DNA from: a virus
Direction: 5' to 3' (one strand)
IMG/VR virus record: IMGVR_UViG_2162886007_000049
Location: 1 to 20,336 of that record
Length of the DNA stretch: 20,336 bases
The notes beneath the pieces are model-generated. The model had not been told where the DNA came from, made no database searches, and saw only the letters and a list, made by a program, of their open reading frames with translations. The stretch's first letter is position 1, and the number at the start of each line of letters is the position of its first letter. Made by a program: the position numbers and the translations under genes. Of this stretch, positions 2,688-17,241 are shown piece after piece.

Positions 2688-3599
2688 TTGAGATCTACAA
2701 AAAAAGAAGAATTTTTAGAAAAGGCACGATCCGTTCATGGTGGAAGGTATGGCTATTCGAACGTGACCAAGTCGAGTTATAGGGATATCGTTTCTATCTA
2801 TTGCGATGTCCATGGTGAGTTTTCTCAGCGCGTAGCTTGCCATTTGAGAGGTCGTGGATGCCCGTCTTGTGGACTGAAATCAAGATCAGATAAGAGACGC
2901 CTGGACACAAAATCATTTTGTGATAGGGCCATGGTTATTCATGATGGATTTTATTTTTACGATTCCGTAGTTTACGAAAATATGTTCACGCCGGTTAAAA
3001 TTATATGTCGTGAGCACGGATCATTTATGCAGTCGCCGTCTTCTCATTTTAACGGAAGCGGGTGCCCTACGTGCGGCACAAAAAAGGCAAGAGATCATCA
3101 TCAGCACACGCTAGATGATTTCATCAGCAGGGCAAAAAATGTCCACGGGGAAAAGTACGAATATGGCAAGGCAATTTATATTGAAAGCAAGGAAAAATTA
3201 TGCATAACGTGCCCGTCGCATGGTGATTTTTTTCAGATTGCCGCTTATCACCTGTCAGGAAATGGATGCCCATCTTGCAGTCGAACTGGATTCAATCCTG
3301 GAAAAAATGGATATCTTTACCTGTTAAAGTCTTCAGACGGCTCACTGTTAAAAATAGGAGTAAGCCATAATCTCAGACAGAGATTTAGTAGGCTGACTGC
3401 AAAAACTCCATTTTCATTCACGATTGAATTTACATCGTTCATGAGTGGGCAAGACGCAGCAAGGCTAGAAAAAGAGATTCTTGGTAGATTCATGAGCGCT
3501 GGATTTACTGGGTTCGACGGAGCTACTGAGTGGCTTCGGTATGACGACGAGATCATGAAATATTTCAAAGATCATGAGCTCAGCGTGTTGACGCACTGA
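2688..3599 (+). CDS. Putative homing endonuclease: three DUF723-type repeats plus GIY-YIG-like domain
   Basis: This 303-residue protein lies on the strand opposite the tail genes, between the tail tube and chaperone genes. It has three tandem repeats with an exact 68-residue period: conserved HG at 42/43, 110/111 and 178/179, and GCPxC cysteine pairs at 58/61, 126/129 and 194/197. These are DUF723-like zinc-binding modules, expected to bind DNA. The C-terminus has a GIY-YIG/T5orf172-like core: GYLYLLK at 208-214, KIGVS at 222-226, Arg230/Arg232, Glu261 and a TEW motif at 280-282. TTG at 2688 is the start because no ATG fits and AGGGG (2675-2679) lies 8 nt upstream. It looks more AT-rich than the neighbouring structural genes. 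It is most likely a freestanding selfish nuclease. Confidence 0.8.
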   Translation: MRSTKKEEFLEKARSVHGGRYGYSNVTKSSYRDIVSIYCDVHGEFSQRVACHLRGRGCPSCGLKSRSDKRRLDTKSFCDRAMVIHDGFYFYDSVVYENMFTPVKIICREHGSFMQSPSSHFNGSGCPTCGTKKARDHHQHTLDDFISRAKNVHGEKYEYGKAIYIESKEKLCITCPSHGDFFQIAAYHLSGNGCPSCSRTGFNPGKNGYLYLLKSSDGSLLKIGVSHNLRQRFSRLTAKTPFSFTIEFTSFMSGQDAARLEKEILGRFMSAGFTGFDGATEWLRYDDEIMKYFKDHELSVLTH

Positions 3600-5087: not shown

Positions 5088-5500
5088 TAGACTTTCATCC
5101 CGCGTTGAATGATTGCATCGATTGCCGCTCGAGCATCAGAATCTTCGAATGCCTTGCGCAGAAACTCAGGCTCACCGTCTTTATCCCAAAAATTACCACG
5201 AGACGGATCTGATTTTGATCGTGGAGTATTTGTTCCGAGAAGGGTGCCTTTTGCATCATGTACGGCAGCGGCATATGCAGCGGTGTATCCAATAGCTCCA
5301 ACAACCCTAGTGCCATAAGCCGTAATCTTTCTGTACTGGCTGTTGATTAAGTTCGAGGTGTCGATAGGCGTCATGGTTGCAGCAAATGCTGATGCCTCAA
5401 TAAGCACCTCCGTCAGAGTCTTCTCTGCTTTAGGGCCGGATATGTCACCGAACACTCTGCGTAATTGCTGACGAACTTCCTTCAACCCCTTAACCGGCAT
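5087..5500 (-). CDS. HK97 gp10-like head-tail connection protein
   Basis: This 137-residue protein has features of the HK97 gp10 family: an N-terminal helix beginning MPVKGLKEVRQQLRRVF, a central segment with YAAAVHDAKG, and a C-terminal GEPEFLRKAFEDS pattern. Family members act at the head-tail junction during completion of the particle. It is coupled to both neighbours by TGATG and TAATG overlaps, in a run of four short joining genes. Length is normal for the family. Confidence 0.78.
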   Translation of the reverse strand: MPVKGLKEVRQQLRRVFGDISGPKAEKTLTEVLIEASAFAATMTPIDTSNLINSQYRKITAYGTRVVGAIGYTAAYAAAVHDAKGTLLGTNTPRSKSDPSRGNFWDKDGEPEFLRKAFEDSDARAAIDAIIQRGMKV

Positions 5501-5844
5501 CAGACAGTCTCCAGATCGTACTCATCCTCATAACCCATGGCAGACATACCATGACGAGCTATCTTGCGAATCTCTGCGGCCGATACTGCATCCCATGCTT
5601 GGGCGGTAGTGTCGCCGTATGCGATGCGGTCTAGGTATTGGGGGCGAACATCGCCAGTGTAATAGATATCGCGAGTCACGAACTCTGCGCCTTCAGTGTC
5701 GCGTGATTGGCGCGATACGCCCTCATGCCCGCAAAGGATGGTGTACGGGGTTCCGTATGTTACGCCACCGCCCCAGTCGGCTTCGGCGAGCCTTGGATAG
5801 ATCGTTGCGGTGTCGATCATGTACCACGCGGACATGAAGGCCAT
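5500..5844 (-). CDS. Putative head-tail joining / stopper protein
   Basis: This 114-residue protein starts MAFMSAWYMIDTATIYPRL and includes TRDIYYTGDVRPQYLDRI. The frame opens upstream at 5874, but ATG 5844 is chosen because it overlaps the previous stop (TGATG) and has GGGAAG 8 nt upstream. Its place between the adaptor-like protein and the gp10-like protein suggests a stopper or neck protein. No catalytic motif is seen. Function is inferred from gene order only. Confidence 0.6.
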   Translation of the reverse strand: MAFMSAWYMIDTATIYPRLAEADWGGGVTYGTPYTILCGHEGVSRQSRDTEGAEFVTRDIYYTGDVRPQYLDRIAYGDTTAQAWDAVSAAEIRKIARHGMSAMGYEDEYDLETV

Positions 5845-6233
5845 CAGCAGCACTTCCCGCCAGTCGAAACCCACAGACCAGCAGATGTGCCAGGCTCTGG
5901 AGGGATTATGGAAGTGGTGCAGCCGCTGGTGTCGAGCGCATTCAGTAGCGAACGCAGTGAACGATAGCCATCAGTAAACGACTTGTAACGGAAGGACTGA
6001 GACGCGCCACTAGGTGCCGTCTGGCTGGAGATGTACTTGTCGCCAGAGACGAACCCGAACATTCCAAGCGCGTACAGGTAGATCAGCATCTGGGTGGATG
6101 CAGGATAGCCAGCACCATCAAGGCACGGCTGAATGATCGCAACCGTATCAAGCCATGCCTGCAAGATGAATGTTGGTGGAATTGGTACGCCGATGCTGGC
6201 GAGATATTCTTGAAGCTGCTCTAGCGTCGGCAT
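5844..6233 (-). CDS. Putative head-tail adaptor protein
   Basis: This 129-residue protein (MPTLEQLQEYLASIGVPIPP) is the first gene of the tail/joining operon, where head-tail adaptors of the gp6/gp15 type usually lie. It is mainly helical in appearance, with a hydrophobic stretch MLIYLYALGMFGFV and a C-terminus rich in Gly, Ser and Cys. A GTG at 6242 would add three residues, but ATG 6233 is better placed: AGGTGG (6244-6239) lies 5 nt upstream. The stop overlaps the next ATG. The role is inferred from position. Confidence 0.6.
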   Translation of the reverse strand: MPTLEQLQEYLASIGVPIPPTFILQAWLDTVAIIQPCLDGAGYPASTQMLIYLYALGMFGFVSGDKYISSQTAPSGASQSFRYKSFTDGYRSLRSLLNALDTSGCTTSIIPPEPGTSAGLWVSTGGKCC

Positions 6234-6261
6234 TTTCGCCACCTGGAAAATAGTTTCCCAT

Positions 6262-6340: not shown

Positions 6341-6487
6341 ATGACCTTCACCGTACAGAAAGCCCGTAACACCTTCACCGTCACCAGCGTCGAAATGATC
6401 ATCGGCAGCTTCAAGACAGAACAGGAAGCCCAAGCCGAAGCGGATCGAATGACAGCAGAATACGAGCGCGTGCTGAGTTTCTTGTAG
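6341..6487 (+). CDS. Small protein upstream of phaZ, function unknown
   Basis: This 48-residue ORF encodes MTFTVQKARNTFTVTSVEMI, then GSFKTEQEAQAEADRM and an acidic helix. AGGAA (6329-6333) lies 7 nt before the ATG, and the phaZ start follows 20 nt after its stop, so the two look like an operon. The second half is Glu/Ala-rich and probably helical; the first half looks like short beta strands. No domain is recognised. It could be a regulator or simply a small cargo gene. Confidence 0.55.
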   Translation: MTFTVQKARNTFTVTSVEMIIGSFKTEQEAQAEADRMTAEYERVLSFL

Positions 6488-6507
6488 TTTTAATCAAAGG
6501 AATGACG

Positions 6508-7335
6508 ATGAGCTGCTTAACGGAAATAAAAACAACACCATTCGTTTACCGCACAGTCATTATCGACGGACAGACAATCCGCACGGCTGTACGTCCGGGC
6601 AAGTCAACTCTTACGCCGCTGCTGATCTTTAACGGCATAGGCGCATCACTGGAGCTTGTGTTTCCATTCGTTGCTGCGCTTGATCCGGATCTTGAGGTGA
6701 TTGCGTTCGACGTGCCTGGAGTCGGCGGATCGGCAACACCTCTGCTGCCTTACACATTCAGCAGTCTTGCACGACTAGTTACACGCATGCTTGATGTGCT
6801 GGATTACGACGAGGTAACGGTTGCAGGCGTTTCATGGGGCGGTTTCCTTGCTCAGCAGTTCGCCTATGACCATCCTAAGCGCTGCACCAAGCTCATCCTA
6901 GCAGCTACCTCTTCAGGCGTGACGATGGTTCCGCCATCGATGAAGGTTCTGATGCTGATGGCGAGTCCTGAGCGCTACACGAACCATGAGCATATGGCTG
7001 CAATTGCGCCTGAGATTTACGGCGGGTCGTTTCGGAATAATCCTGAGCTGTGCATAAGTTACGCCAACAAAATGAAGGCGCCAACATCGCAACTCGGGTA
7101 CAAGCTCCAAGGTATGGCGGTCTGGTGGTGGTCATCGGCATTCTGGCTGCACAAGATCAAGCAACCGACTCTAGTTTTAGCTGGCAATGACGATCCGATC
7201 ATTCCGCTAGTCAATATGGAATTCATCGCTAGACGTATTCCTAACGCTGAAATGCACATCATTGACGACGGGCATTTGTTTCTGGTGACTAAGGCTAAGG
7301 AGATTTCGCCGAAAATAATGAAATTTCTTGCTTGA
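6508..7335 (+). CDS. phaZ: PhaZ-like intracellular medium-chain PHA depolymerase (alpha/beta hydrolase)
   Basis: This 275-residue alpha/beta hydrolase closely follows Pseudomonas PhaZ as I remember it: the segments IRTAVRPGK, TPLLIFNGIGASLELVFPF and DPDLEVIAFDVPGVGGS, and the C-terminal LHKIKQPTLVLAGNDDP and IIDDGHLFLVTKA. The nucleophile is Ser109 in GVSWGG (107-112). The acid is probably Asp229 in NDDPIIP, and the base His256 in DDGHLF. P. putida PhaZ has Ser102, Asp221 and His248 at similar spacing. NGIGA (42-46) would form the oxyanion site, and residues about 143-213 the lid. The length is nearly full (PhaZ about 283). PhaZ releases hydroxyacids from stored polyester granules in the cytoplasm. 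ATG 6508 is preferred over 6502 because AAGGA (6497-6501) is 6 nt away. It lies opposite the structural genes as cargo. Confidence 0.88.
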   Translation: MSCLTEIKTTPFVYRTVIIDGQTIRTAVRPGKSTLTPLLIFNGIGASLELVFPFVAALDPDLEVIAFDVPGVGGSATPLLPYTFSSLARLVTRMLDVLDYDEVTVAGVSWGGFLAQQFAYDHPKRCTKLILAATSSGVTMVPPSMKVLMLMASPERYTNHEHMAAIAPEIYGGSFRNNPELCISYANKMKAPTSQLGYKLQGMAVWWWSSAFWLHKIKQPTLVLAGNDDPIIPLVNMEFIARRIPNAEMHIIDDGHLFLVTKAKEISPKIMKFLA

Positions 7336-7421
7336 CGGGATTAGATTGAGAGTCTAGTCTCTGAGTTAAGCAAGACAAGCGCCCTGAACATCAGGCCCAC
7401 AAACAAACCGAGGACACGACC

Positions 7422-7454
7422 ATGCTATGGCTCCTGCTGCTTATCCTGATCTAA
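7422..7454 (+). CDS. Ten-residue hydrophobic peptide ORF (MLWLLLLILI)
   Basis: ATG to TAA spans 11 codons. GAGGA (7410-7414) lies 7 nt upstream, an ideal ribosome binding site, and an intrinsic terminator begins 3 nt after the stop. Apart from Met and Trp the peptide is only Leu and Ile, enough for half a membrane span. It may be a membrane micropeptide or a leader peptide. An 86-nt leader separates it from phaZ; that leader contains a small CCTGA-aca-TCAGG hairpin (7384-7396) and no clear promoter, so it may share the phaZ transcript. Confidence 0.4.
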   Translation: MLWLLLLILI

Positions 7455-7457
7455 AAC

Positions 7458-7483
7458 AAAGCCCTCCAAGTGAGGGCTTTTTT
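7458..7483 (+). terminator. Intrinsic terminator of the phaZ island
   Basis: The stem AAAGCCCTC / GAGGGCTTT (7458-7466 with 7472-7480) has a 5-nt loop and six T (7478-7483). The stem is identical to that of the terminator at 11428-11452. It ends the plus-strand island, facing two minus-strand small genes. Confidence 0.88.
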
Positions 7484-7484
7484 A

Positions 7485-7652
7485 TTACTTTCGCTTAACC
7501 TTAGGCCTAGGCGTCGCCACCTCAAGCACCTTCACAGCCTCATCAGGCAACGATACACACTTACCCCTAAGCCATTGAGGGCATGAGTCGGCCTCGACTA
7601 CAGCGCCAGCCTCAAGACCGTTCGTTGGGTATGTTACGCGGAATCTGGCCAT
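7485..7652 (-). CDS. Small protein downstream of major capsid gene, unknown
   Basis: This 55-residue ORF encodes MARFRVTYPTNGLEAGAVVE, a SCPQWLRGKC segment and a basic end (RPKVKRK). Its ATG overlaps the stop of the 58-residue gene before it (TAATG), indicating coupling. The stop lies against the T tract of the convergent phaZ-island terminator. The two cysteines around a Trp could bind metal, but this is a guess. The gene order suggests a minor head or connector factor. Confidence 0.6.
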   Translation of the reverse strand: MARFRVTYPTNGLEAGAVVEADSCPQWLRGKCVSLPDEAVKVLEVATPRPKVKRK

Positions 7653-7828
7653 TACTCTTTATCCTTTGGCGGGCGACCACGGCGCGGAGCTTCGACCTCT
7701 ACCGATTCAACTTCGACAGCCTTGTTAACCAGCGTTACAGGCAGCGACTCATGCTTAACCCGTACACCAATCTCAAGTTCTACGCCGTCAACGAAAACGC
7801 CATGCTGCGTAATCTCAAACTCTTTCAT
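7652..7828 (-). CDS. Small protein with AT-hook-like C-terminus
   Basis: This 58-residue protein begins MKEFEITQHGVFVDGVELEI. It ends in a basic RRGRPPK motif (residues 49-55) resembling an AT-hook, which binds the minor groove of AT-rich DNA. ATG 7828 is chosen over GTG 7834 because GGAG (7837-7834) lies 5 nt upstream. It follows the major capsid gene and its terminator, so it depends on read-through or an unseen promoter. Proteins of this size with RGRPPK tails occur near capsid genes in other phages, to my recollection. Function is unknown. Confidence 0.65.
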   Translation of the reverse strand: MKEFEITQHGVFVDGVELEIGVRVKHESLPVTLVNKAVEVESVEVEAPRRGRPPKDKE

Positions 7829-7840
7829 TTTCACTCCAAT

Positions 7841-7881: not shown

Positions 7882-8892
7882 TTATGCGCCTTTAACGAAC
7901 TGCGCTACGCCGCTGTTGCCAGCGTTATCACGCTTGAACTGTGGTGCTACTGCGCTCATGATCTGGAAGCTGTACTCGTCGGTGAAGTTTTTACGTTCAA
8001 TCGGCATGGTGGTAACAGGCATCGCAGTCAGGATTTCCAGCACTCGGCGTTCTTTCACAACGGCGAGGATTTCGTTCACTGGAACAGCGGTGGATGGAAC
8101 GATTGCAACAACACCAGGAATCGCCATCAGGCGAGCCAGGATGGTGTTCTGAGGCGCGGCGGTAACGTAGTCGTTAACCGATGCAGCGAACCAGTCACCA
8201 TAGTTCAGGTAGATGGTAGCGCCGCCGTAGAAGTTCTTGGCTTGCAGGCCGAGAAGAACACGCTTGATCGCTTCAACCCACTGAGCACCGGTAGCGGTTA
8301 CCAGATCAACGTTGCCGAAGTTACCAGTAGCGCGACTTGGCGCGGTACGGATACCGTAGATCTGGTTGCCGGCCACGTTGAACTTGGTGTCCCCGTTAAT
8401 TACCAGATCTTCCAATTTTTCCAAAATGCGACGGTTACCGTTGTCGCGAGTAGCGGCGTCCAGGTACTGCCAGCCACCGTCTTGACGAGCTGCTTCAACA
8501 TCGCGCCAGCCGAAGGTGAAGGTGGTGTCGTAGATTGGAACCGGAGTGCCTTCGTAATCAATGACTGGAGCGTCTGCTTTCGCACGGCTACGGCCATCAA
8601 TCGAGCTGTTCACTTCGCCTTGGTCACCGACCTTGGAGAAGTAGTGCAGGACTTTGCCAATTGGAACGCTCTTTTGCAGGCTGGCCAAGTCAGTGAACAC
8701 GCCAAGCTGAGCACGCTGCAAGGTGATCAGGTCGTTGTCGTAGGTAGCCCACGCGTCACGAGGGATGGTGTAGGCGTTACCGATCAGCTCGCCTTCGCTA
8801 TCTCGTGCGAGGCGCTCTTGACGGGCGTTGTGAGCGCGGCGCTTGCCGATTACGGCAGCCTCTTGCTCTTTGTTAAAAGTCAGAATAGGCAT
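7882..8892 (-). CDS. Major capsid protein
   Basis: This 336-residue protein follows the protease-scaffold and decoration genes, the fixed place of the major head protein. It begins MPILTFNKEQEAAVIGKRR and ends FKRDNAGNSGVAQFVKGA. Segments such as DTTFTFGWRDVEAARQDGG and EKLEDLVINGD resemble the encapsulin-like subset of HK97-fold capsid proteins, with an N-terminal arm, a spine helix and a P-domain. The start is 5 nt after the previous stop, with only a weak AAGAA upstream, so coupling may matter. A strong terminator follows. The role is secure by position and size; the exact Pfam family is not. Confidence 0.88.
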   Translation of the reverse strand: MPILTFNKEQEAAVIGKRRAHNARQERLARDSEGELIGNAYTIPRDAWATYDNDLITLQRAQLGVFTDLASLQKSVPIGKVLHYFSKVGDQGEVNSSIDGRSRAKADAPVIDYEGTPVPIYDTTFTFGWRDVEAARQDGGWQYLDAATRDNGNRRILEKLEDLVINGDTKFNVAGNQIYGIRTAPSRATGNFGNVDLVTATGAQWVEAIKRVLLGLQAKNFYGGATIYLNYGDWFAASVNDYVTAAPQNTILARLMAIPGVVAIVPSTAVPVNEILAVVKERRVLEILTAMPVTTMPIERKNFTDEYSFQIMSAVAPQFKRDNAGNSGVAQFVKGA

Positions 8893-9661: not shown

Positions 9662-10645
9662 CTCTAATTCCTCGATAACATTAGCCACGACTGGCTGTTC
9701 AGTTTTGGTACTGAAATATTTTACCATAGCTTTCAAGTTAGCCATGATGGTGTTGGTTTTGACCTTGTACGATGTTTCAACAGTTACTACTTTCGATTCG
9801 CCGGTAAGGATTGGATTGTCACCCTCATAGTGATAGTCGATTGTGTAAGTGCCTTCTGGCGTTACATAGATCAGCGCCCGATCATCGAAGTCTTGCACGT
9901 ACGCGTAACTGTCCGAAGTGGCAAACCGCTCCTTGACTGCCTCGCTCAAGATGGCAAGCTTCTCGCCATATGAGTCGTCTAGGGCGTCTTCGTTGACAGT
10001 CGGCAGCACTGAGTTAATGACCGACTCGCAGTTGACCGCGATTGCAACCTCATCACCGCCAGCGCCTTGCTCGTGGAACAGGATTGCCAGGTGGTCATAG
10101 GACTGCTGAGTGGCGATCCAGCTATACGACTTGCCGCGAGATTCGCCTTTGGCATTCACGCGAGCAGTCATAAGGCCGGTTGACATATGCACTGGCTCCG
10201 GCTTAGCTGCGCCGTTGACTTGGTAGTCTTCAGCCTTGCCAACCCAATTCAGCAGCATTTCACCGTCTGGATGGGATTTAGCAACGCGCTCGTTGATCAT
10301 CACGTCAGCGAAGTACTCTTCGCCGGCCTGTCGCACGTTCTGAGCGTGAACACCGCCGTAGTGCTTGCCTAGTGCCACCGCAACATCAGCGTTGTCTAGC
10401 GAGCTGATAGCGACATACTGTCCGTTTACTTCTGGGTGCCCGAAAGGCATCACGCGGCCATCCATCGACGAATAACCCTTGGCGTTCTCGGACGAAGAGT
10501 ACAGACCATCGTTTAAGACAATGTTGTCCTTCATCCACAGCACATTCTTGATAACCGCGTACTTCTCGCCAGCTACCTCCGTGCGCTCAATCTTGATCGA
10601 GTCAGCGTTAACCGCTGACAGGATGTTAACCCTTGTCTTCTTCAT
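9329..10645 (-). CDS. Prohead maturation protease fused to scaffold (DUF2213-type)
   Basis: Residues 1-200 resemble the DUF2213 prohead protease family. The likely catalytic residues are His70 in the FGHPEVNG motif and Ser155 in VHMSTGL, with His185 in SYDHLAIL as the third member. This fits the herpesvirus-assemblin-like fold of phage prohead proteases. Residues about 325-438 form an Ala/Glu/Gln-rich coiled coil typical of scaffold. The protein should shape the procapsid and then cut the scaffold away before packaging. The first 20 nt overlap the end of an HNH nuclease gene. An internal start with a strong ribosome site at 9661 probably also gives a scaffold-only product. Confidence 0.88.
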   Translation of the reverse strand: MKKTRVNILSAVNADSIKIERTEVAGEKYAVIKNVLWMKDNIVLNDGLYSSSENAKGYSSMDGRVMPFGHPEVNGQYVAISSLDNADVAVALGKHYGGVHAQNVRQAGEEYFADVMINERVAKSHPDGEMLLNWVGKAEDYQVNGAAKPEPVHMSTGLMTARVNAKGESRGKSYSWIATQQSYDHLAILFHEQGAGGDEVAIAVNCESVINSVLPTVNEDALDDSYGEKLAILSEAVKERFATSDSYAYVQDFDDRALIYVTPEGTYTIDYHYEGDNPILTGESKVVTVETSYKVKTNTIMANLKAMVKYFSTKTEQPVVANVIEELEMDKVELQAMLDAQAEKLSGAFNAQLEAQSVTINALQESLKANAEAGLKDKRAAVAKVHGEVVANALQGEALDAMFASVQTAAGIVSGAPVTNAKDEFEGYSLNKADQEAK

Positions 10646-11378
10646 TCCGAATACTCTGGGTGGACTTATAGCGATACATCACGCCATTGAATTTTGAAGA
10701 TTTTAACATATTGTCGGACTTCCACTCTGGGCGTAGGTTGCAGAGAAGATTGATCATGGATAGATCCTTGCCCTGAGCAATGAATGCGGCAACCGGTTTT
10801 ACGTGATCGATATGCCAATCCCCGTGATTCTCCCATGTCATTCCTGGCTTGAAATTGAACTCAATCCGAGTCATTAGATTTTCTATGTTTATATCCCTGA
10901 CCGAAACAGAACCCTTGCTCATCTTGGCCTTACGCACGCATGCCACAAGCCTTGATCGTAATATGCACGCGATCCTGTGATGCTTGTCGTCGCGGTATTT
11001 GCTCCTGATCGACTCCTTGTATTTATCTGTCGCCTGTCTGGCTTTGTCGTATGCTCGTTTTTTTGCTCTCATGTGCGGCAACGCAAGATACTCTCGTCGG
11101 TATGCGCGATGCTTTTCTGTTTTAACCTTGGCCCTGCTTAGCTCTTTTGCTCTATCGGTCTGTCTGTATGCCTTGTTTCTATCGGTTAGTTTTTCCGTGT
11201 ACTCTTTATCTATGCCATATCTGGCGCCAGCAAACGCCTTCGCCTTGATTCGTGCGCATTCCATGCAGACACCGCTAGATGTCTGTCTTTCGTCGACGTG
11301 GCCATGAACGCATGGCTTTCCTGTGTAGTAGCGAACAAGCCCATCCTCTCTAGCCTCTTTTCTTAGTATCACTTTCAT
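10626..11378 (-). CDS. HNH homing endonuclease
   Basis: This 250-residue protein has an N-terminal zinc-ribbon-like part (Cys23 in PCVHGH, then CMEC at 38-41), a long Lys/Arg-rich helical middle that should bind DNA, and a C-terminal HNH core: WHIDH with His189, Asp191 and His192, then N214 in LLCNLRP and N223 in KSDNML. It makes site-specific cuts that spread its own gene. It sits just before the prohead protease gene and overlaps its first 20 nt. A GTG at 11384 would add two residues; no strong ribosome site is visible for either start. It looks like a freestanding insertion in the head operon. Confidence 0.85.
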   Translation of the reverse strand: MKVILRKEAREDGLVRYYTGKPCVHGHVDERQTSSGVCMECARIKAKAFAGARYGIDKEYTEKLTDRNKAYRQTDRAKELSRAKVKTEKHRAYRREYLALPHMRAKKRAYDKARQATDKYKESIRSKYRDDKHHRIACILRSRLVACVRKAKMSKGSVSVRDINIENLMTRIEFNFKPGMTWENHGDWHIDHVKPVAAFIAQGKDLSMINLLCNLRPEWKSDNMLKSSKFNGVMYRYKSTQSIRNEEDKG

Positions 11379-11408
11379 TTTCACGACGCCATTCTATTTG
11401 ATGCAGTC

Positions 11409-12443: not shown

Positions 12444-12947
12444 TCAGAGATATCCGAGCCACTCAAAAGGCTCAGTCATCATCTGTCTGTTCTTCTTGAA
12501 CACATTCAGAAATCCAGGAATACATTGCACGTTATTCCAGCAATGCAGGCCGCTGACCAGCTTTCCGTTTAGAGGAAACATGTGATCGACGTGCCACTCA
12601 ATGCCAGTGGCAACCTTTCGGTCATGGCACAGCGAGGTTGCCTCAGCCATTACGAAGTAATCAAGCTCCCCATACCATGGCGGCACCCTCTTAATTCGCT
12701 TGGCTCTGAGCTTTTGGCTAGCCGCTGACGCCGATGCTGGATTTTCTTTTGCTCGCCTTATCGCATAATCAATAAGCCTGTCCCTGTTTTCAGTATGAAA
12801 TTTCGCATGCTTTTCAGCAAAATACTCTTTTCTTGAGTTGTAATATTTTTTACATGCGGCCTGTCTACGCTCCTTATTCCTCTGATACCAAAGCCTTTTC
12901 CTCTCTTTTTCCTTATCTTTTTTCTCATCGCTTTCGGAAGGAGTCAT
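12444..12947 (-). CDS. HNH homing endonuclease
   Basis: This 167-residue protein has a very basic N-terminal helix region (residues 8-70: KKDKEKERKRLW, RRQAACKKYY) and a C-terminal HNH core: WHVDH with His119, Asp121 and His122, then HCWNNVQCIP with His135 and Asn138/139, and N148/N153 near the end. It probably nicks or cuts a specific phage site. It stands between the inverted portal gene and the 299-residue gene. The ribosome site is weak (GAG in TTGAGATGATCA). It is not closely alike to the HNH protein at 10626-11378, so it is a separate arrival. Confidence 0.83.
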   Translation of the reverse strand: MTPSESDEKKDKEKERKRLWYQRNKERRQAACKKYYNSRKEYFAEKHAKFHTENRDRLIDYAIRRAKENPASASAASQKLRAKRIKRVPPWYGELDYFVMAEATSLCHDRKVATGIEWHVDHMFPLNGKLVSGLHCWNNVQCIPGFLNVFKKNRQMMTEPFEWLGYL

Positions 12948-13072: not shown

Positions 13073-14446
13073 ATGACTGTGAAACGCACGCCTGCACTAG
13101 ATTTGGCGCTGAACTCGGCATTGAGCGAGCGTCAGGCTGTGATGAGCCGCCAGTCTCTGCTGATGGGCGGGATTGACAATAAGCGCCCCGATGCCTGGTG
13201 CAGCTACGGATACAAGACTGATCTCTGCTTCAATGATTACTATCGCCTGTTTGAGCGCGGCGGGATTGCTCACGGCGCAGTAATGACGCTGAACGAGAAC
13301 TGCTGGTCGACTGATCCGGAGGTTATCGAAGGCGACGAGGAAGATCGCGCCGAAGCTCCTACTGCTTGGGAGAAACAATTCAAGAAGCTTGCCAAGCGCC
13401 TGAAGTTGTGGGAGAAGTTCCGCGATGCTGATATGCGCCGCTTGGTTGGGCGTTATTCGTGCATCCTCCTGCAATTCAAGGATTCGAAGCAGTGGGATAA
13501 GCCAGTCGGCAAAGCATCTGAACAGCAGCTGATTAACCTGATCCCAGCTTGGGAGGCTCAGATTCGCGTTTCTGCTTGGTACGATAATCCAGCAGACGCA
13601 AACTTTGGCAAGCCAAAAGAATTTATCTACACCGAGAACGCGCTTAACGATAACTTCGATGCAGAGCCTGGTCGCATAATTACCGTGCATCCTGATCGAG
13701 TCGTAGTTATCGGCGACATGCGCAACGGAATCCCATTCCTGCAAGCCGGTTTCAACGACTGCGTGAACATGGAGAAGGTGCTTGGTGGTTCGGGTGAATC
13801 CTTCCTGAAGAACGCTAGCCGTCAATTGGCGATCAACTTCGATAAAGAGGTTGACCTTTCTGCCATCGCGCGCGCTCATGGAGTAGCTGAAGGCGAGCTG
13901 CAAGAGATCTTCGACGAAGTAACGCGAGGCATGAACCGTGGGCAGGATCAGACGGTAATCACTAAGGGCGCGACTGTGACGCCTCTGGTGGCTAACGTTC
14001 CAGATCCAATCCCAGCCTTTGACGTATCCCTGCAATCCTTCTGCGCGTCTATCCGCATCCCGTCCAAGATCATCGTTGGCAATCAGACTGGTGAGCGTGC
14101 ATCTACTGAGGATCAGAAGACGTTTAACAAGCGCTGCCAGGGTCGCAGGGTTAGCCTGTTGTCGTCTGACATTGAGACGTTTGTTGATCATCTGATGCGC
14201 TTAGGTGTGCTGCTGACGGTTGAGTCGTCGGTTTGCTGGGATGACTTAAGCGAGGCGTCTCAGGCTGAAATGCTGGCTAACGTCGTGCTCATGGCCGATG
14301 TTAATCAGAAGATGCTTGCAAGTGGCGAGCTGGTATTCAGCATTAAGCGGATGATTGAGGCGTCTGGCTACGATTATGACGCCGAGGAATTGACTCCGCT
14401 TCCTGATGTAGAGCCAGCGCCAGAAGACCCGGCAACCGTGCAATAA
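13073..14446 (+). CDS. Portal protein (DUF1073-like)
   Basis: This 457-residue protein resembles the DUF1073 group of portal proteins. It has an N-terminal arm with YGYKTDLCFNDYYRLFERGG, a basic central part (KQFKKLAKRLKLWEKF), and a late segment SIRIPSKIIVGNQTGERAST followed by KTFNKRC, which is typical of the portal crown/stem region. It forms the ring through which DNA enters the head. GAGG lies 9 nt before the ATG. It is on the plus strand while terminase and capsid genes are on the minus strand, which is unusual. A terminator separates it from the MuF gene. Confidence 0.88.
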   Translation: MTVKRTPALDLALNSALSERQAVMSRQSLLMGGIDNKRPDAWCSYGYKTDLCFNDYYRLFERGGIAHGAVMTLNENCWSTDPEVIEGDEEDRAEAPTAWEKQFKKLAKRLKLWEKFRDADMRRLVGRYSCILLQFKDSKQWDKPVGKASEQQLINLIPAWEAQIRVSAWYDNPADANFGKPKEFIYTENALNDNFDAEPGRIITVHPDRVVVIGDMRNGIPFLQAGFNDCVNMEKVLGGSGESFLKNASRQLAINFDKEVDLSAIARAHGVAEGELQEIFDEVTRGMNRGQDQTVITKGATVTPLVANVPDPIPAFDVSLQSFCASIRIPSKIIVGNQTGERASTEDQKTFNKRCQGRRVSLLSSDIETFVDHLMRLGVLLTVESSVCWDDLSEASQAEMLANVVLMADVNQKMLASGELVFSIKRMIEASGYDYDAEELTPLPDVEPAPEDPATVQ

Positions 14447-14448
14447 TC

Positions 14449-14468
14449 AAAGGCCCTATGGGGCCTTT
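14449..14468 (+). terminator. Intrinsic terminator between portal and MuF genes
   Basis: The stem AAAGGCCC / GGGCCTTT (14449-14456 with 14461-14468) has a TATG loop and a TTTCTT exit. It follows the portal stop by 2 nt and lies 17 nt before the MuF start. Partial read-through would lower MuF relative to portal. Confidence 0.75.
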
Positions 14469-14485
14469 CTTAATTAGAGGATTTT

Positions 14486-15385
14486 ATGGGCGAGCCAATC
14501 ATCCCAAGAAGCGAGACGGATCCAACCGGCCAGCAGGCGAGAGTCCAGCGCGCTATCAAGGATTTCAATCGACGCATTGACGCCGTACAGAAAGGCGTTT
14601 TGGCTATCCTGAAGCGCATCCCATACAAGGTCGTCACGCTTAACGCAATCAACGCTGAGCAGAAGACGTACATCTTCGAGCTTGACGACTTCACACTATC
14701 CAACATGGATAACGAGATTTCCATGCTGATCGGCCAGCTAATAGACGAAGGCACGCCACAAACGAACTGGTTCATGTCCGGGTACATCACCCCGGCATAT
14801 GTTCAAGGTACGGCGCTGACGATGGCCAACCTGACGATTCAGTCTGAGGCGTATGCAGTGAGCCGTCCACACCTAGACTCGCTGCTGACTAGCGCTCCTT
14901 ATCGTCGCCGCCTTAGTCTGCTCCAGGCTCGCACGTTCAACGAGATGAGAAAGATTTCTGACGACATGGCTGGTGATCTAGCGTCAACCTTGTCGCGCGG
15001 CATGGCTAGCGGTATCAGTCCACGCAAGATCGCGGAGAACATCGAGACAAGGATTGGAGTTAGCAAGTTTGACGCAAGCCGTATAGCGCAGACTGAAGTT
15101 GTCGGCGCTATGCGTACAGCTAGGCGTGAAGAGGCGCAACAGGCGCAGACTGACCTAGGCATAAAGTCTAAATTGCTCCACCTCTCGGCGCTTAAGAGCA
15201 CGAGCCGTGCTAGCCATATAGCTCGACACGGCAACCTGTATACAATCCAAGAAGTTGCAACGTGGTACTCGATAGTTCCGAATATGATCTTTTGCTACTG
15301 TAGTCAGGTCGAAGTATTGGTTGACGACAAAGGCAATCCACTATCCCCCGGAATCATCGAGCGAGCCAAGCGCAAGCTGAAATAG
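14486..15385 (+). CDS. MuF-like minor head protein
   Basis: This 299-residue protein has a helical N-terminal half and a C-terminal MuF domain. Its signature runs from RIAQTEVVGAMRTARREE, through SRASHIARHGNLYTIQEV, to NMIFCYCSQVEVLVDDKGNP. His, Cys and Tyr positions match the SPP1 gp7/Mu F module, which is found beside portal and helps DNA exit or head assembly. AGAGG lies 5 nt before the ATG. It belongs to the inverted portal cassette and is followed at once by a terminator. Confidence 0.85.
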   Translation: MGEPIIPRSETDPTGQQARVQRAIKDFNRRIDAVQKGVLAILKRIPYKVVTLNAINAEQKTYIFELDDFTLSNMDNEISMLIGQLIDEGTPQTNWFMSGYITPAYVQGTALTMANLTIQSEAYAVSRPHLDSLLTSAPYRRRLSLLQARTFNEMRKISDDMAGDLASTLSRGMASGISPRKIAENIETRIGVSKFDASRIAQTEVVGAMRTARREEAQQAQTDLGIKSKLLHLSALKSTSRASHIARHGNLYTIQEVATWYSIVPNMIFCYCSQVEVLVDDKGNPLSPGIIERAKRKLK

Positions 15386-16449: not shown

Positions 16450-17190
16450 CTATTTGCTCAGGATATAGAATGCTGTTGCTGCCACTCGTGAAACCTGGCC
16501 GTTTCCAATGGCCTTAAGGCGGTCCAGTCTATGGGCCACCCCATCATCCACTCGGTGAAGTTCGGATGGATCTTGCCACCAACGTGAGTCGCGAGCGTGG
16601 GAGTGTTGCGAGCGTACTCTGCTGGATACGCTCCCTCTTTCGTGTTGTGGCAGGTTGGAGTCGGTAGCAAGGATCCAGATTCGATCCCTGACGTGATTGG
16701 CTCCCAGGCTTGACGCTGATAAACATCCCCATTCCGCATCGTACCCCATCTCGGCAAGATCACCGAGGACCACGGCAAGTCCTCTGGAAACAAGGAGTGG
16801 GCTGTTCTCCATGTACGCGAACTTAGGTCGTACTTCGCCAATGATTCTTCCCATGGGCTTCCACATGCTTGACTTGGCGCCATCGATTCCTGCGCCGTTA
16901 CCGGATGCACTGATGTCTTGGCATGGAAACCCGCCAGAAACCACGTCAACAAGTCCTCGCCAAGGCTTTCCGTCAAAGGTGCAAACGTCTGACCAGATCG
17001 GGAAAGCTTCGAGAATGCCATCATTCTGTCTTGCTGCAAGTACGCTAGCGGCGTAGGGTTCTCGCTCGACTGCGCAGACGGTTCGCCATCCGAGCAGCTT
17101 TCCGGCGAGAATTCCTCCGCCCGCACCCGCAAAGAGAGCGAGTTCTCGTAATCCTTCATCAGTGCGTTGCTTATCATCCAGCTCATTCAT
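16450..17190 (-). CDS. DNA (cytosine-5) methyltransferase
   Basis: This 246-residue protein has the C5-methylase motifs in order: motif I LALFAGAGGG (17-26), motif IV GGFPCQDIS with catalytic Cys90, motif VI ENSP (128-131), motif VIII RDRIWILA (168-175), and motif X AIGNGQV (227-233). It transfers a methyl group from S-adenosylmethionine to C5 of cytosine, probably to protect phage DNA from host restriction. The target-recognition region (about 178-213) is short, so the protein is smaller than M.HhaI (327). The ATG at 17190 follows AGGAGG by 5 nt. No restriction enzyme gene is beside it, so it is an orphan. Nearly the whole gene is overlapped by a second open frame. Confidence 0.92.
   Translation of the reverse strand: MNELDDKQRTDEGLRELALFAGAGGGILAGKLLGWRTVCAVEREPYAASVLAARQNDGILEAFPIWSDVCTFDGKPWRGLVDVVSGGFPCQDISASGNGAGIDGAKSSMWKPMGRIIGEVRPKFAYMENSPLLVSRGLAVVLGDLAEMGYDAEWGCLSASSLGANHVRDRIWILATDSNLPQHERGSVSSRVRSQHSHARDSRWWQDPSELHRVDDGVAHRLDRLKAIGNGQVSRVAATAFYILSK
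16458..17186 (-). CDS. Overlapping 242-codon ORF inside the methyltransferase gene
   Basis: In the frame shifted by one, 242 codons are open from ATG 17186, four nt after the methyltransferase ATG, and within reach of the same AGGAGG site. The product contains LTWFLAGFHAKTS (81-92), SSRTWRTAHSLFPEDLPW, PRWGTMRNG (145-153), SLLPTPTCHN (172-181), and TEWMMGWPIDWTAL (211-224). I recall phage proteins with these patterns (WRT..S, PRWG.MRNG, LLPTPT, EWxMGWPxGWT) annotated next to or over methylase genes. The LAGFHAKTS stretch is the second-frame reading of SGGFPCQDIS, so part of the similarity follows from the methylase itself. It could be a truly dual-coded gene or a shadow kept open by codon bias. 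Confidence 0.4.
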   Translation of the reverse strand: MSWMISNALMKDYENSLSLRVRAEEFSPESCSDGEPSAQSSENPTPLAYLQQDRMMAFSKLSRSGQTFAPLTESLGEDLLTWFLAGFHAKTSVHPVTAQESMAPSQACGSPWEESLAKYDLSSRTWRTAHSLFPEDLPWSSVILPRWGTMRNGDVYQRQAWEPITSGIESGSLLPTPTCHNTKEGAYPAEYARNTPTLATHVGGKIHPNFTEWMMGWPIDWTALRPLETARFHEWQQQHSIS

Positions 17191-17213
17191 CACCGCCTCC
17201 TGTGTATGCAGCG

Positions 17214-17241
17214 ATTGTATATGGCTGGAGATAGGCGTCAA
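17214..17241 (-). promoter_or_regulatory. Strong sigma70-type promoter for the methyltransferase
   Basis: The minus strand reads TTGACG (17241-17236), a 16-nt spacer and TACAAT (17219-17214), the best -35/-10 pair in the window. The start site would be about 15-20 nt before the ATG. Confidence 0.7.

Follow-up and report, generated by a model that had tools for sequence, protein, structure and literature searches.

The question raised by the locus

Why should a phage carry, between the genes for its head and its tail, a homologue of PhaZ, the intracellular depolymerase for medium-chain PHA (mcl-PHA) of Pseudomonas, and does this gene truly belong to the phage? The question is raised by the IMG/VR virus record IMGVR_UViG_2162886007_000049, whose 20,336 bases were analysed as a whole (hereafter the window) and contain structural and related genes for tail, capsid, decoration, portal, morphogenesis, terminase and holin. 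On its plus strand, a cassette is laid out in the following order: the promoter-like site P1 (6278-6306; TTGACG - 17 nt - TAGCCT), the first gene orfA48 (6341-6487; 48 aa, MTFTVQKARNTF...EYERVLSFL), phaZ (6502-7335, 277 aa, or 275 aa if translated from the ATG at 6508), a second promoter-like site, P2, overlapping the phaZ stop codon (7332-7360; TTGACG - 17 nt - TAGTCT), a hydrophobic micro-ORF of 10 codons (7422-7454; MLWLLLLILI, ribosome binding site GAGGACACGACC) and, as the end of the cassette, an intrinsic terminator with a 9-bp stem (7458-7485, comprising 7458-7480 and the T tract). The cassette occupies a hotspot bounded on the left by a minus-strand phrog_786 gene (5844-6242; E 7.8e-39), which is kept in relatives, and on the right by the minus-strand major capsid protein (MCP) gene (7882-8892; phrog_771, E 1.1e-78; phrog_264, major head protein); a small gene (7652-7834) lies between the terminator and the latter.

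The original prediction of a plus-strand cassette with a small ORF, phaZ, a 10-codon ORF and a terminator was confirmed in the sequence, but the claim that the surrounding head-tail region is minus-strand holds only in part, as the portal and head-morphogenesis genes (13073-15385) are on the plus strand. Their orientation, opposite to that of the remaining head genes, is found in all relatives too, and also in the cultured Pseudomonas phages MR14 and Torfinnsbu, with DDSR119 sharing the reversed portal gene; the inversion is therefore a true family trait, and an artefact can be ruled out. At the junction corresponding to the phaZ hotspot, these three cultured relatives have just 68-141 bases. 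Putative endonuclease genes are scattered among the head and tail genes (2688-3599, 10626-11384, 12444-12947) and differ between relatives; they were called as T5orf172/GIY-YIG type by Pfam, two being HNH-like by inspection only. A C5-cytosine methylase gene (16450-17241) is overlapped by a second long frame on the same strand (16458-17186, 242 aa).

Residence in phage genomes

The same phaZ (83-98% identical) was found at the same head-tail junction in 18 IMG/VR contigs, referred to here as phage A, which come from several metagenomes and include a few near-duplicates from different assemblies. A search of papers for the IMG sample numbers, meant to reveal the habitat, gave no match. Three phage A genomes (48,516, 48,380 and 49,023 bp) are circularly closed by identical ends of 114-123 bases and encode terminase, portal, capsid, helicase, recombination and tail genes. 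Taken together, the closed genomes and the syntenic contigs show that phaZ resides in a phage. The frame is whole in 17 of the 18 contigs, one copy stopping after 214 aa, and one copy has a small internal deletion. No integrase, resolvase or clear repressor was found in the three complete genomes, and no tRNA genes that might hint at a host were present in the complete-genome stretches scanned.

Among otherwise close genomes, the capsid gene occurs as two very different alleles of about 25% identity (window; L002, L005, L006, L013, L016; L numbers denote our contigs and loci). Since this allele differs in several contigs in which phaZ remains 92-98% identical, phaZ persists through strong mosaicism. 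The gene itself can be mosaic, with DNA identity to the window of about 61-83% in the first half and up to 95% beyond (L017, L018).

Identity of the PhaZ protein

The window PhaZ reached 410.7 bits (E = 2.8e-123) on TIGR02240, the NCBI equivalog for intracellular PHA depolymerase, whose cut-off is 250.6; this is the only equivalog model it passed, with a margin of 160 bits. The runner-up family, PcaDC, gave 116 bits against its cut-off of 390, and Pfam returned generic alpha/beta hydrolase families, nothing more specific. Because canonical Pseudomonas PhaZ proteins score about 603-622 bits on the same model, the window protein has to be regarded as a diverged member of the family, and the E value together with the frame kept intact in nearly all related contigs excludes a chance ORF. 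Its identity to Pseudomonas PhaZ is 66-68% over nearly the full length.

The catalytic set proposed originally, Ser109, Asp229 and His256 (275-aa numbering), held, as it aligns with Ser102, Asp221 and His248 of P. putida PhaZ. Experiments have shown that these three residues and Asn35 are critical in the latter enzyme, as are the loop FNGIG (34-38), the lid (133-192) and the hinge YYWQLF (190-195) (PMC12504323). All of these elements are retained in the window protein with the exception of the lid hinge, which reads YKLQGM in place of YYWQLF, accompanied by the substitution of Ser184 with Ala and one extra residue. The lid itself is present, with 61 residues, and is helical in an AlphaFold2 model (pLDDT 88.4, pTM 0.88; lid helices around 145-206). 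Furthermore, the C-terminal tail of host PhaZ (about 18 residues) is missing, so that the claim of Pseudomonas-type segments over the full length has to be corrected at the tail and at the hinge. The folds nearest to the model among solved structures are esterases and hydrolases of 16-30% identity, and no viral structure in BFVD exceeded about 20% identity.

Compared with Pseudomonas PhaZ (PhaZKT; TIGR02240), the phage protein thus shares the alpha/beta hydrolase with lid, the Ser/Asp/His triad, Asn35 and the FNGIG loop, but forms a separate clade and differs in hinge, extra lid residue and missing tail, while its gene sits in a head-tail moron and not next to phaC. The phrog_789 esterase/lipase of mycobacteriophages is likewise an alpha/beta hydrolase in phage genomes, but is not a PhaZ and resembles the window protein at about 30% identity over only a part of it. 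PHA depolymerase activity of the window gene product is, to our judgement, very likely, albeit inferred without an enzyme assay.

A gain/loss site with its own signals

Neighbour searches with a conserved gene (5500-5874) yielded 46 loci, 41 of them spanning the hotspot, in a sampling which was not random. The gene phaZ is present in 15 of these 41 hotspots and absent from 26, and should accordingly be dispensable for the virion and for replication. In the relatives without phaZ, orfA48 is followed directly by the ribosome binding site of the micro-ORF and then by the terminator, which shows the site of gain or loss to lie between orfA48 and the micro-ORF/terminator; other cargo found at the hotspot comprises RNA ligase, SPFH/Band 7 and TerB-like genes. 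Based on this clean empty site, the promoter-like P1 and the terminator, phaZ can be regarded as a moron, meeting the demands for an own promoter, a terminator and clean presence or absence, although the promoter is supported by sequence conservation only.

P1 or a close variant was present in all 15 phaZ-containing hotspots, its 17-nt spacing is that of promoter-like sites in relatives lacking phaZ (for example L143, L151, L163, L165), and each of the three complete genomes contains the exact block a single time. A sigma-70 consensus scan with strict hexamers did not pick it up, because the second hexamer matches weakly. By sequence inspection, P2 has the same architecture as P1 and as the promoter-like sites in phaZ-less hotspots. 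That P1 and P2 act as promoters is inferred from these sequences, transcription not having been shown. Upstream of P1 lies a near-palindrome, GGAAAATAGTTTCC(C), and an operator-like palindrome, GGAAAATAGTTTTCC, is seen just upstream of P1 (upstream of 6278) in L007, L013 and L018, being imperfect in the window.

Upstream of phaZ, orfA48 is 83-98% identical in most phage A contigs, and 50-58% identical in several phaZ-less relatives as well as in L021, an unrelated phaZ phage; family searches with orfA48 gave no match. In L017 (2837-2962), its C-terminus EYERVLSFL is kept despite replacement of the remaining protein, and in the unrelated 54-kb phage L021 an orfA48 homologue (7653-7796) precedes phaZ. 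These observations could possibly reflect a recombination anchor or a linked function. The same or a similar micro-ORF (MLWLIVLLILI, MLTAALILLLLF; 10-12 codons; including L138, L151, L165) recurs in some two thirds of the 41 hotspots irrespective of the presence of phaZ, with its own ribosome binding site, synonymous changes and the terminator thereafter; it probably encodes a real micro-peptide, the role of which is unknown. The position of the terminator is kept in relatives, and its stretch (7452-7492) matches several Vibrio phages over 38-42 nt at 95-97%, beside their portal gene, which hints at an exchange of terminators or hotspots.

The morons of lambdoid phages are likewise units of promoter, gene and terminator, placed between late genes on the opposite strand and variable among close relatives. 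Phage A differs from these in its metabolic hydrolase cargo, in the apparent lack of an integrase and in the resident frame which orfA48 and the micro-ORF form around the cargo.

Selection, origin and spread

Among the phage A phaZ copies, dN/dS is 0.067 (mean dS 0.49), which shows that the gene is kept functional under strong purifying selection, with the catalytic and lid framework of PhaZ preserved; among phage B copies the value is 0.086. The GC3 of the phage gene is 0.56 as compared to 0.79-0.98 in the chromosomal phaZ genes tested. In the phylogenetic tree, chromosomal Pseudomonas PhaZ proteins form one clade (98/99) and those of phage A another (100/99), thereby placing the window protein beside, and not inside, the chromosomal clade. 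The original prediction would have been refuted by best matches to other alpha/beta hydrolases without support for a PhaZ clade; both TIGR02240 and the tree favoured PhaZ instead. Two copies from Pseudomonas megaplasmids (P. serbica L030, P. silesiensis L176; about 65-67% identical to phage A PhaZ) are likely the sister of the phage A clade (87/88 support); these are, however, plasmid-borne and not located by phage structural genes, the one of L030 adjoining R2K ATP-grasp and HipA-like genes. That all mobile PhaZ arose only once could neither be shown nor rejected (AU p 0.54), and it should be noted that several deep forks of the tree are unresolved and that long branches are present.

A wider profile scan revealed phaZ in at least 51 IMG/VR viral contigs belonging to several phage groups, whereas none of the 50,697 INPHARED records contained the gene, no full-length match exceeding 29%; the designation of phaZ as an uncommon phage gene therefore holds only partly. 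Four of the records (229, 280, 284 and 307 kb) are phiKZ-type jumbo phages, in which terminase and RNA polymerase subunits of the phiKZ type (689-846 bits) were identified. Others comprise 104-kb records that also encode terminase, and a group of 52 kb that bears an integrase; some smaller or mid-sized records lack confirmation by a terminase match. The phiKZ-sized L243 (IMGVR_UViG_2974641675_000001, 279,845 bp), possibly derived from an isolate, has a PhaZ of 51% which is still above the equivalog cut-off. Apart from the most divergent, the viral homologues tested passed TIGR02240 as well, with 290-477 bits; L245 fell just short (245.7 vs 250.6). Across 52 viral sequences, Asn35, the triad, Tyr190 and Gln193 are kept in every copy covering these sites, and the glycines of FNGIG are invariant where covered, with the remaining hinge positions varying. 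None of the viral PhaZ placed in the tree falls into the chromosomal Pseudomonas clade and none of the viral loci tested has phaC as a neighbour; chromosomal phaZ genes beside mis-called proviruses are thereby ruled out.

Host

A PhaZ of their own is carried by 364 of 399 Pseudomonas genomes, the listed best matches being at most 68% identical to the phage gene, and among 369 gammaproteobacterial genomes the family was matched in one, the Pseudomonas centre itself. Judged by the portal, the closest cultured phages are those of P. poae (Torfinnsbu) and P. putida (DDSR119). From this family distribution and these relatives the host is likely a Pseudomonas, so that virus and substrate would meet, but no direct link to a host was found: the 399 Pseudomonas genomes yielded neither a match to the MCP (a query without positive control) nor a prophage with phage-type PhaZ (phage B query without positive control).

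Proposed role in infection

Residing in a bona fide phage genome and having a metabolic homologue in the host, phaZ satisfies the genomic criteria for an auxiliary metabolic gene, and the explanation we consider likely is that of a separately controlled auxiliary metabolic gene, carried as a moron by a Pseudomonas phage, with activity, expression and benefit being inferred. In this view, phaZ would be expressed from P1 during infection, the soluble enzyme would bind to the mcl-PHA granules of the host and its catalytic serine would cut the polyester into (R)-3-hydroxyalkanoic acids, which FadD and beta-oxidation of the host would convert to acetyl-CoA, NADH and ATP. The phage would no longer depend on the PhaZ level of its host, and in a starved cell filled with granules the stored carbon could be directed into phage replication. 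As most Pseudomonas genomes already encode PhaZ, any gain must come from its level or timing. In growing wild-type P. putida, Western blots did not reveal the native PhaZ, and raising PhaZ kept metabolism active, with about tenfold ATP in stationary phase (PMC8764540); this ATP rise renders a fuelling of infection plausible. We lean, by a small margin, towards fuel as the main benefit, which like the catalysis on mcl-PHA remains an inference; the original prediction had likewise called use by the phage an inference, and we agree. Speaking against the depolymerase and fuel view are the YKLQGM hinge, the change of Ser184 to Ala and the extra residue, all within a region in which deletions or S184F abolish the depolymerase activity of PhaZKT.

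Alternative explanations

The phage enzyme might be a PhaZ-derived esterase acting on other substrates (host acyl esters, lipids or acyl-homoserine lactones), for example in lysis or signalling. In favour of this, the altered hinge is nearly invariant across the phage A copies, the folds of esterases and of an AHL lactonase align well, and a single change in the hinge shifts the substrate of PhaZKT from the polymer to small esters (PMC12504323). Nevertheless, we consider it unlikely, since the PHA depolymerase equivalog is exceeded by a wide margin, a hinge of the form YYYQ is kept in many of the other viral PhaZ, and Asn35, the FNGIG glycines, Tyr190 and Gln193 do not vary where covered.

Lysogenic conversion, in which phaZ would serve a lysogen (survival of starvation or stress through a faster PHA cycle) and not lytic growth, appears improbable as well. 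A moron with its own promoter is an architecture typical of genes expressed from prophages, an integrase occurs in the second phaZ phage group, and faster PHA cycling brings more ATP and stress tolerance (PMC8764540). The three complete phage A genomes, however, lack an integrase, resolvase or clear repressor, no such prophage was found in the 399 Pseudomonas genomes, and phaZ is also present in phiKZ-type jumbo phages, which, as a rule, are not known to be temperate.

If granules were removed on physical grounds (to gain space, to aid lysis or to set granule-bound proteins free) instead of for energy, the enzyme chemistry would be identical; such a clearance of granules cannot be told apart from the fuel model by sequence, but is without positive evidence and seems very unlikely. 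Misassembly, host contamination or passive hitch-hiking, for which only the truncated copy and the one with the internal deletion could be cited, is all but excluded by the syntenic contigs from several metagenomes, the closed genomes, the low dN/dS, the GC3 distinct from chromosomal genes and the absence of phaC neighbours, the closed genomes and synteny ruling out contamination or a chimera.

Novelty and significance

In the open-access literature searched, no earlier report of a phage phaZ was found. Phage genes of PHA synthesis (phaC, fadJ, phbB and others) are known from PHA-producing mixed cultures (PMC12013262); these also belong to the PHA cycle, but to synthesis rather than degradation, and the main text of that study mentions neither phaZ nor a depolymerase. 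Well-known auxiliary metabolic genes mostly target photosynthesis, nucleotides, sulfur or central carbon. While such genes are thus a known kind, the breadth of phaZ across phage groups is unusual. A bolder reading, which might equally well prove right or wrong, is that capturing the host's depolymerase for PHA reserves is a strategy to which Pseudomonas phages have turned repeatedly, in which a radiation of viral PhaZ, distinct from all sampled chromosomal PhaZ and with a re-tuned lid hinge, would burn the polyester store during infection in unrelated carriers ranging from siphophages of about 48 kb to phiKZ-type jumbo phages of 300 kb.

The dozens of naturally diverged PhaZ lids are a resource for enzyme work on bioplastics, and the finding is of relevance to PHA biotechnology, where product may be lost to phage, and to the turnover of carbon by pseudomonads living in soil and water. 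The fuel reading predicts a benefit in PHA-accumulating hosts only, and a phage enzyme directed at a storage polymer could account for the growth of phages in starved, granule-filled bacteria.
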